DNA of 64,000 bases, from assembly GCF_000002985.6 (NCBI RefSeq), contig NC_003283.11:8184001-8248000 (forward strand), written 5' to 3'. Position numbers and translations under genes: made by a program. Below, in pieces: positions 23,236 through 62,270 of the stretch. The notes beneath the pieces were generated by a model that had not been told where the DNA came from, did no database searches, and worked only from the letters and a program-made list of their open reading frames with translations. The stretch's first letter is position 1; every line of letters begins with the position of its first letter. This DNA is from Caenorhabditis elegans. Its lineage: Eukaryota; Nematoda; Chromadorea; Rhabditida; Rhabditidae.

Positions 23236-23913
23236 ATGTTAGCAGTTGTTTTCACGTTCCTACTCTGTCTCAGTTTTCCACAAAGTTTTGAGTCATGTAG
23301 CTGTATGGAATTTCAATCAGAGAAAGATGGATATTGCGCAACTTCATGGAGTGAGTCACAAATTGATATTAATCCAGCACTGTGTTATGTTGTATGTACT
23401 TATAAAACTAGGTTTTCAGTTTCCAAAGTGAAAGTCGTTTCGAAGGAAACTGATGGGCTTGGATTAATGATGTCATATCGATTGGAACATTTGAAAGTTA
23501 TCAAGGTTTTTTGGCAACTAATGAAACAAAAAAGTAACCACTATATTTTAGGCACCAGAAAACATGACTTTACCGGAGACAATGAACACTGCAACGCAAG
23601 AAAGTGCTTGTGGTCAGACTAAATTTAAAGTTGGGAAGCAGTATATTTTTGGAGGCAAGTCAAATTTATGCAAAAGTTTTCCGTAATCAAACCCGTAATT
23701 AAATTAGCAATCCATTCGATTGATTAAACCGTCCTTTAAAAAGTGATTCCAGGATCCTTGGCAAACAACGATTCTCTTTTGATAACATTTTGCGACTGGC
23801 GTGTTCCATTAAAATACATTGATGAGCCAAAACTCGAGATGAAGCCGACTTGGAAGAAGTTTGTGGATTCGGTTGGAAAATGTCCTCCACCACCTTCCCC
23901 GCTTTCTTCGTAA
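23236..23913 (+). CDS. Second secreted TIMP/NTR-like protein, with a GC-AG intron
   Basis: Exons 23236-23350, 23420-23505, 23552-23654 and 23753-23913 encode 154 aa. A signal peptide (VVFTFLLCLSFPQSF) precedes the TIMP-like mature start SCSC, with Cys-x-Cys offset by a few residues from the cleavage region. SKVKVVSKE, LEHLKVIK, ACGQTKFKVGKQYIFGG and FCDWRV each align with pieces of the upstream TIMP gene, so the two are paralogues flanking the esterase. The third intron begins GC rather than GT (GGAG/GCAAGT). Only this GC-AG splice keeps the frame that matches the paralogue. The C-terminus adds a proline and serine tail (CPPPPSPLSS). If Cys1 is not the true N-terminal residue, metalloprotease inhibition would be weak. 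Confidence 0.8.
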
Positions 23914-42150: not shown

Positions 42151-42852
42151 TCAATCATCAGCAGTCCAGACATCAGCTTCCTTTGGCTCAGAAGTTGATG
42201 GCCCTTCATTGCTCTTTGGCGACTCGGCCTCAGCAGACTCCGGAGTTCTCTGGAAATATATTTAAAAATTTCAATCGCTCATTTACAACACTGAAGTGTT
42301 AAAATTTTAATTAAAAACGTACCAGAATAGTACAATGTAATACCCTATCTGACTCCACTAATTACAAAACATGGTTTTTGGAAAATTTCTAAAGTTTCCA
42401 ACAAAAAAAACCAAAATTCTCACCGCCTTCTGTCCTTCTGGGACCTGAAGTCTCTCCATCTGCTCACGCTGCATTTTCTCGAGCTTCTGAGTAGTGATGG
42501 TCTTCAATGGGATAAGCTTTGGCTTACAGAAGATCGGAGTCAACGTTTCGTCCTAAAATTCATAAGTACCAACAGCAATTAAAATATATCAAAACAATAA
42601 TTTTCAAAAATTGAACATAAAAAAAACCGTACCTGGAACAAGTAGCACTCGTCGACAAATAACTTCTCTTCCAACTTCTCGCCTTGAGACATTACAACTC
42701 TAAGAAAAAATAATATAAATTATAATAATAATATAAAATAATATAATCGATTTTGTGCTCTCACTAAACCTTTCTTGTTTCTCGTTCTTCTCCGTTGCCG
42801 GGGCAACCTCTCCCTCGTCAACACCACCATTTAGAAAAGTGACCAGATCCAT
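42151..42852 (-). CDS. BBIP1/BBIP10-like BBSome subunit
   Basis: Exons 42852-42770, 42699-42633, 42552-42424 and 42249-42151 give 125 aa from the first ATG. Exon 3 contains CKPKLIPLKTITTQKLEKM, which closely matches the core of vertebrate BBIP1 (BBIP10/BBS18): CKPKL-(L/I)-PLK followed by LEKM. BBIP1 is a very small subunit of the BBSome, the coat that moves membrane proteins in and out of cilia. Translation could instead begin at ATG 42692 in exon 2, just after a TTTTTTCTTAG acceptor suited to SL1 trans-splicing. That gives 95 aa, close to the 92 aa of the human protein. A perfect RFX-type palindrome lies about 100 bp upstream of that start. The C-terminus is an acidic, serine-rich tail (ESAEAESPKSNEGPS). 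Confidence 0.75.
42794..42807. promoter_or_regulatory. X-box-like RFX/DAF-19 site
   Basis: GTTGCCGGGGCAAC is a 14-bp palindrome with perfect GTTGCC and GGCAAC half-sites and a two-base spacer. It fits the general RFX consensus RYYNYY-N2-RRNRAC, although C. elegans X-boxes usually have AT in the centre. It lies inside exon 1 of the long BBIP1-like model but 102 bp upstream of the alternative ATG, the distance typical for DAF-19 sites in ciliary genes. Confidence 0.5.
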
Positions 42853-42918
42853 TTCGAATAGGTGTGTCGTGAGCTTTTTCCAAAAGCACTAATTAGCGAA
42901 TTGAGAGATGCTGGAGAA

Positions 42919-43330
42919 ATGGTAAATAGGCACGTTGATGTTATTCGAAAAATTTTGAAAATATTATTCAGAAAACATGTGATATCATCTCCAGGGAGAA
43001 TGAAAATGTGGCTATACGACTGTGGTGATCATATTGAAAACAATTTTAAAAAACTTATGTTACAAAATGTTGAAAATGATTTCCATGATATGAAAACGAT
43101 ACTAGACGAAATTGGTAAGTGTAGGCAGATATAATGTTTGATACTAGGAACACGTGTCAACCGTATTCTCGGATATTCATGGATTACGAATATTTTTTCA
43201 CAGAAATTGCGATTAAAAATGATTTTGATGCCAAAATTTAAAAAAATGGGATTGCCAGGCTTTCAAGTGGTCAGAATACACTGGCAAAATGCCCGAGATT
43301 TTAGAAAAACTGTCACAGATCTGTAAAAAC
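42919..43330 (+). CDS. Weak candidate small gene upstream of the BBIP1-like gene
   Basis: An open frame with an in-frame ATG (near 42919) reads MVNRHVDVIRKILKILF, then FHDMKTILDEI. It ends at a GTAAGT donor near 43114 and could join at a TTTTTTCACAG acceptor near 43202 to end at FDAKI. The result would be a helical protein of about 77 aa. I recognise no family, and the AT-rich region could produce this by chance. Confidence 0.22.
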
Positions 43331-61241: not shown

Positions 61242-62270
61242 GTTCAGACAGCCTGAATTTTTGTTTAAGATCAATGTAATAAAAGAATCTCAAGATTAAA
61301 TATCATTCGAATGAATAGATAACCAATGACGAATATCAGAAAAGCCCTAAAGTTGGTGAATAGGCGTTATTTCTGCAGATGTCAGCTACTACGTCAGAAT
61401 GCATTTTTTATATTTCTGCAAACTTGCAAGAAAGTGACCTTTGTTAAGAATGTACCCGAAGTCTTCGGGTTAGTGAGGTTTGCTATGGAACAATTAATTA
61501 ACCATTTGAAGGCCCGAGAGAAGCTTACCAGTAAAAGGGACGTTGAATTCGAACAAAACAAAAATTAGAACTGATTTGTTTAGACCACCCCAGTTTACTT
61601 GAATTCGTGGGTAGTATGTCCGTGGGAAGGTCAGCGTCGTTTTAATTTTTAATTTTCGAATTATATTTATGAAAAATCACTAAAAATTCTTATTTTGAAC
61701 CACCCTCATTTTTAAATGATCTTTCGATCTATAATACTTTGACATGACTACACAAAAAAAGGTATTTACAAAGAAAATATGAAGCATGCAAAAAAATGTT
61801 CTCAGTCTCTCCGGCGTAAGATCGACATCTAAAATTTTGAATTTTATGGAGATGACAAAGAAAACGTTCGGAAAAAAGGCTTGCGCAAAAACCAACACGT
61901 TAGAACACAGATCAGCATCACAATATATTCTTGCTCGACGAAACATAAAGTGTTTGGAAAACTTTTGAAAATGGCGGAGAATGGCTTCCAGGGCAACAAA
62001 GTTACTAATTTATGAGCCGTCTCTTATTCATTGGGAAAAAACTGCGACAGAAAAAACCGATCACCTAGAATCGAAAAGAAGAGTGTATGGATTGTGCTTA
62101 CTATTAGAAACAATAACGACATATCATTTTAAAAATTTCCCAGTGTACTTTTCCAACCATTAATACACATGTTGTGCTTAATTTTAATCAATTATTCAAG
62201 TCCTGCAGTGTTTTTGTTTTAAGTCGGCACATTTTTCAGAATATCCACAGCAACGCTCTTATTTGATCGA
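61242..62270. other. Intergenic; only weak open frames
   Basis: Plus-strand frames at 61326-61568 (ending MEQLINHLKAREKLTSKRD), 61786-61968 and 61981-62163, and a minus-strand frame at 61680-61946, have no recognisable domain and no good splice links. They could be decayed gene or transposon pieces; I cannot support any as a gene. Confidence 0.4.

Follow-up and report, generated by a model that had tools for sequence, protein, structure and literature searches.

The gene at positions 42151-42852 on the minus strand of the window, the 64,000-nucleotide stretch of Caenorhabditis elegans DNA analysed here, is best explained as an orthologue of the BBSome subunit BBIP1/BBS18 with a DAF-19 X-box, whose main ciliary product would be a protein of 95 amino acids starting at an internal ATG at 42692. 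We assign this reading as a whole a probability of about 0.66. The protein family, the palindrome, the distances around it, the collinearity with solved BBIP1 chains and the layout of a paralogue were observed directly. In the proposed mechanism, DAF-19 (RFX) would bind the palindrome at 42794-42807 and turn the gene on in ciliated neurons, with transcription presumably starting between the palindrome and 42700. The 95-aa protein would then be translated from 42692, the mRNA being trans-spliced to SL1 at 42699 or else carrying a short leader rich in A+T, and would fill the BBIP1 place in the BBSome. Exon 1 of the longer gene model would be a lineage-specific N-terminal extension, which, if used, would be supplied by a second transcript starting above 42852.

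Gene model and protein family

The long model comprises four exons on the minus strand (42852-42770, 42699-42633, 42552-42424 and 42249-42151), and the spliced coding sequence translates into 125 amino acids. Exon 1 is joined to exon 2 in frame, with the last base of the acceptor AG at 42700 and the first base of exon 2 at 42699. Intron 1 (42700-42769) is 84% A+T and would serve as outron or 5' leader if transcription starts below the X-box. The internal ATG in exon 2 corresponds to M31 of the long form, and its translation confirmed the 95 amino acids given in a preliminary description of this DNA. The CKPKL-PLK-LEKM core was likewise found where it had been placed, in exon 3 (CKPKLIPLK...KLEKM; the numbering of exons begins with the long exon 1), while exon 4 encodes an acidic tail with a WTADD end and contains the stop codon.

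The 3' neighbour of the gene, in tail-to-tail orientation, is a paired-box gene (PF00292, 4.1e-59); a COG6 gene and a protein kinase, presumably Aurora-like, are found further along. We regard this neighbour as pax-1, which was cloned from K07C11.1 according to the available text of PMC2920861, and therefore take the window gene to be K07C11.10, a name derived from its neighbour, and identify it with the K07C11.10 of PMC551537 and PMC10917524.

The Pfam family PF14777 (BBIP10, 'Cilia BBSome complex subunit 10') matches the long form with an E-value of 5.9e-12 and 45.4 bits, compared to a cut-off of 26, and the short 95-aa form with 8.9e-13. At E-values up to 10, the Pfam scan of the window protein yielded BBIP10 only and no chaperonin (Cpn60/TCP-1) domain. 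When the protein was compared by phmmer with the BBS18/BBIP1 chains of solved BBSomes, values of 3.9e-07 and 6.1e-07 were obtained for 6vbu and 6xt9, which we take to be the bovine and the human chain, respectively. A third phmmer match, to a ubiquitin factor at 0.094, was taken as noise. No relatives were found in the bacterial and viral collections, as expected of a nematode gene. The Pfam match and the solved chains bear out the proposed BBIP1 identity, and on sequence grounds the gene almost certainly belongs to the BBIP1/BBS18 family. Its protein is accordingly a predicted member of the BBSome, in which BBS18 sits between BBS4 and BBS8 (PMC10356136, in the section available).

The alignment with 6xt9_J runs without gaps from M31, the internal Met, with identity at 18 of 55 positions. 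The aligned Met is residue 70 of the 139-residue 6xt9_J chain, in which a tag or extension precedes it; a form with a short N-terminal extension is also known for the reference human BBIP1. In the alignment with the 6vbu chain (69 residues), residue 42 of the window protein is paired with residue 12, which places 6vbu residue 1 at position 31. In the preliminary description the near-human size of the 95-aa protein had served as an argument for the internal start. This argument is loose; the telling point is the spacing from Met to CKPK, which is 28 residues in the window protein and in 6xt9_J alike.

The palindrome and the X-boxes of other bbs genes

We take the X-box consensus to be GTTNCC-NN-GGNAAC, with ten fixed half-site positions. 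All ten are matched by GTTGCCGGGGCAAC at 42794-42807, the minus-strand codons of which read V-A-P-A-T. As described earlier, this perfect palindrome is located in the coding part of the first exon (42770-42852), where it starts 45 bp inside the long reading frame (ATG at 42852). The gap to the A of the internal ATG at 42692 is 101 bp; the previously given value of 102 bp is the difference between coordinates. An X-box range of 60-160 bp above the start codon, taken from the available part of PMC551537, includes the distance to the ATG at 42692 and not that to the ATG at 42852.

The exact match GTTGCCNNGGCAAC occurs in the window at 42794-42807 only. In the genome (100,286,401 bases) it was found at ten places including this one, while the reversed control gave none, and from the genome count the chance of a match in a given 100-bp stretch is calculated to be about 1e-5. 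One of the other nine (C5:3115770-3115783), centred on AT, is part of an open frame of 121 codons, in which it would be read as VAMAT. In 20 sampled stretches, a half-site score of 10/10 was reached at 0 of 199,740 positions and a score of at least 9 at three. Matches with up to three mismatches number 10 in the window, no excess over shuffles (mean 9.55). Two further window sites score 9/10 (23437-23450 and 61984-61997). Because of these two and the three among the sampled positions, a score of 9/10 is by itself too common to carry much meaning, and position matters. The weight of the palindrome is carried by its position beside the BBIP1-like gene.

For comparison, bbs-1, bbs-5, bbs-9 and bbs-2 were located with PF14779, PF07289, PF14727 and PF14781, and their upstream DNA was read. 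The control set consists of these four genes, bbs-4, osm-12 and bbs-8 lying outside it, and the start codons were assigned from open frames in this analysis. The gaps between X-box and ATG are 85 bp in bbs-1, 80 bp in bbs-2, 51 bp in bbs-5 and 67 bp in bbs-9, so that the 101 bp of the window gene exceed every control gap. Each control site scores 9/10, compared to 10/10 in the window, and has AT at the centre of the palindrome, where the window site has CC/GG. The claim that the X-box is spaced from the internal ATG like a promoter element is supported by the controls. Above the ATGs of bbs-1 and bbs-2 no splice acceptor was seen by eye in the immediate vicinity, and SL1 trans-splicing of the window gene is therefore possible but not needed.

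The expression pattern expected of an X-box gene is found in print. The available text of PMC551537 places K07C11.10 at rank seven of the mRNAs enriched from ciliated neurons and reports a GFP reporter in ADF, ADL, ASE, ASG, ASH, ASI, ASJ, ASK, AWA, AWB, AWC, PHA and PHB. These are 13 amphid and phasmid neuron classes, and that text lists no other cell, in agreement with the ciliated-neuron expression that had been predicted. From the same source, X-boxes lie about 100 bp above start codons, and according to the accessible part of PMC1794439 every C. elegans bbs gene studied carries an X-box, with expression confined to ciliated neurons.

If the palindrome were instead a chance string of codons (V-A-P-A-T), the gene would be driven by something else. 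This would fit the nine other perfect palindromes of the genome, at which no BBS or IFT gene was recognised by eye, and the open frame around that at C5:3115770. However, a match expected at about 1e-5 per given 100-bp stretch would then have arisen beside a BBSome gene near the expected distance, and the ciliated-neuron expression reported in the consulted part of PMC551537 also argues against coincidence, which we regard as very unlikely. The symmetric motif could also serve a divergent plus-strand ORF, since it lies 111 bp above an ATG at 42919. This ORF has a non-coding score (-7.6 bits over 65 codons), no other genome match at E-values up to 10 and no family over its Pfam cut-off, which makes such a role extremely improbable. 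The frame at 42919-43113 and beyond can be spliced to a 77-aa protein. Function of the palindrome at 42794-42807 as an X-box of the BBIP1-like gene is very probable, and DAF-19 would be the factor that uses it.

Exon 1, the paralogue and the start codon

The coding content of exon 1 was scored with a codon table built from 38 long open frames, which came from 20 sampled stretches of 10 kb each. The score obtained for exon 1 is 10.6 bits over 27 codons. This is at least as high as 87.5% of 273 windows from long frames and was reached by only 0.28% of 2891 open short-ORF windows. Of the alternative frames in the same region, both on the sense strand are interrupted by stops, and a single antisense frame is open, at 1.6 bits. 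A slightly different codon table gave exon 1 a score of 9.2 bits. After 5000 dinucleotide shuffles 1256 sequences stayed open, 5 of which reached this score; when the palindrome was kept fixed and only its flanks were shuffled (5000), 66 of 2238 open shuffles did so. A hexamer (codon-pair) score is negative for exon 1 (-5.4) and also for the certain exon 3 (-4.2). For this reason, and given the small training set of 8,033 codons, it was taken as uninformative. Since the codon score is rarely reached by shuffles or short-ORF windows, exon 1 looks translated, or was until recently. The suggestion that the long ORF might be a modelling artefact is not supported, given the coding-like codons and the in-frame join to exon 2, and the 125-aa form may be a real isoform.

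Splice sites were scored with a model seeded with the C. elegans consensus, which kept 26 of 32 candidate introns and is too small to decide; an unseeded model converged on noise and was dropped. The donor of exon 1 scores 3.08 bits, a value as low as in 3 of the 26 model introns, and donors as good occur about 12.7 times per kb per strand. The acceptor for 42699, 7 nt above the internal ATG, is weak (4.53 bits) and falls under all 26 model introns, yet no better one exists between 42690 and 43150. Splice strength favours neither the long nor the short form.

A whole-genome search with PF14777 found two places over the cut-off, exon 3 of the window gene and C5:20500265-20500381 (32.3 bits, minus strand) on chromosome V. 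The latter belongs to a paralogue with three exons and 111 amino acids, the junctions of which fit the consensus by eye. It is 40% identical to the window protein over 98 amino acids. According to our reading of the alignment, its two introns lie near introns 2 and 3 of the window gene, within one residue and about four residues, respectively, and the positions of its Met and of M31 differ by a single residue. Nothing in the paralogue corresponds to exon 1. No good X-box lies within 300 bp of the paralogue's ATG (best 7/10), indicating that the BBIP1 family does not need an X-box. A site with a 3-base spacer was rejected, as it scores 7/10 and a score of at least 8 is found in 338 of 2000 random stretches of 300 bp. 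The layout of the paralogue is the best evidence within the genome for an ancestral start near M31. Together with the alignment to the solved chains, the lack of exon 1 in this gene upholds the internal Met as a start that is likely ancestral.

These results bear on two alternatives to the internal start. The 125-aa protein may be the main product, transcribed from above 42852, with the X-box acting inside the first coding exon and its 14 bases serving both as codons and as RFX site. The coding-like codons of exon 1, the in-frame junction and a possible further acceptor (first exon base 42910, score 3.88) would agree with this, but the X-box lies below the ATG in none of the four control bbs genes, M31 is where the alignment with the paralogue and the solved chains begins, and the in-frame donor is as weak as noted above. 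We consider the long form as main product fairly unlikely. Alternatively, two promoters may produce both forms, an X-box-driven short ciliary form and a longer one with broader or different expression. Such an arrangement would account both for the coding-like exon 1 and for the evidence that points to M31; it is at odds with a published reporter listed in ciliated neurons only, though both promoters may have been included in it. Two promoters appear possible, if on balance doubtful. This alternative is compatible with our preferred explanation, and the odds given to the two overlap; they are set apart by the predicted second transcript.

The internal start is favoured because the solved chains align to M31 without gaps, the paralogue lacks exon 1 and the control X-boxes lie 51-85 bp before the ATG. 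It is probable that the start at 42692 gives the main ciliary product. Several observations count against this reading, namely the coding-like exon 1 with its in-frame join, the weak acceptor at 42699, the paralogue without X-box, the CC/GG centre, the 101-bp gap, the nine other palindromes at which no ciliary gene was recognised by eye and the extra 9/10 sites. The normal dye filling of K07C11.10(tm3304), stated in the part of PMC10917524 at hand, is to be added to these. Taken together, the BBIP1 identity, the X-box distance and the internal Met of the original interpretation are supported, while its artefact reading is not.

Published accounts and comparison with known systems

According to the available portion of PMC10917524, K07C11.10(tm3304) mutants show resistance to both ivermectin and moxidectin, and dye filling is abnormal in the five other bbs mutants of the table. 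Mutants of bbs-1, bbs-2, bbs-8, bbs-9 and osm-12 are listed there as ivermectin resistant, those of bbs-4 and bbs-5 as susceptible. The reading of K07C11.10 as a BBSome subunit fits the resistance of the first five. The same source calls K07C11.10 an orthologue of the chaperone BBS10, and the label is repeated for two Teladorsagia genes in the text seen of PMC11801625. In contrast, the window sequence is BBIP1-like and not chaperonin-like. In the parts consulted, PMC1794439 names three human BBS genes that lack a clear orthologue in the worm, BBS10 being one of them, and PMC10356136 describes the CCT chaperonins of this pathway as not conserved outside vertebrates. The 'BBS10 ortholog' label is for these reasons most likely a confusion with 'BBIP10 / subunit 10', and the identity proposed here corrects it, since the ivermectin-resistance gene looks like a BBSome subunit.

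K07C11 does not occur in the main texts of PMC1794439 and PMC10393296. A literature search (elegans/Caenorhabditis) did not find a worm gene under the name bbip-1, bbs-18 or bbip-10, and the accessible accounts of BBIP1 in PMC10200814, PMC4493597 and PMC10356136 do not describe one. Published X-box scans, as far as their available descriptions go, covered 60-160 bp (PMC551537), up to 2,000 bp (PMC1794439) or 700 bp (PMC10393296) above annotated start codons. Because only DNA upstream of annotated starts was covered, a site in a predicted first exon escapes them. If the internal start is true, the DAF-19 regulon gains the eighth BBSome subunit of the worm, and over-long first-exon models may hide further X-box genes. 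A BBSome gene with an X-box is already known as a kind. As far as our searches of the literature go, the exonic X-box, the paralogue without recognisable X-box and the likely mislabelling in print are new.

In Teladorsagia circumcincta, the excerpted PMC11801625 reports two 'k07c11.10' genes about 0.6 Mb apart on chromosome 5 in an ivermectin-associated region. Going by this pair, the possession of two BBIP1-like genes may be widespread among nematodes of this group. The two C. elegans genes might also differ in control, the RFX site of the window gene doubling as codons and separating isoforms and the paralogue lacking a recognisable X-box, an idea that we hold to be decidedly unlikely. If true, two BBIP1 genes could allow the linker subunit of the BBSome to vary between cells or conditions.

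The window protein resembles BBIP1/BBS18 (PF14777) in the CKPKL-PLK-LEKM core and in the equal distance of this core from the start Met in the aligned solved chains. It differs in a longer acidic tail, and the long model adds 30 N-terminal residues with the X-box inside. Compared to the X-box (DAF-19/RFX) promoters of bbs-1, bbs-2, bbs-5 and bbs-9, the half-sites are common to all and the site is placed within about 100 bp above a start codon. The window site is distinguished from these X-boxes by CC/GG instead of AT at its centre, by its location in a predicted coding exon and by a gap of 101 bp instead of 51-85 bp.
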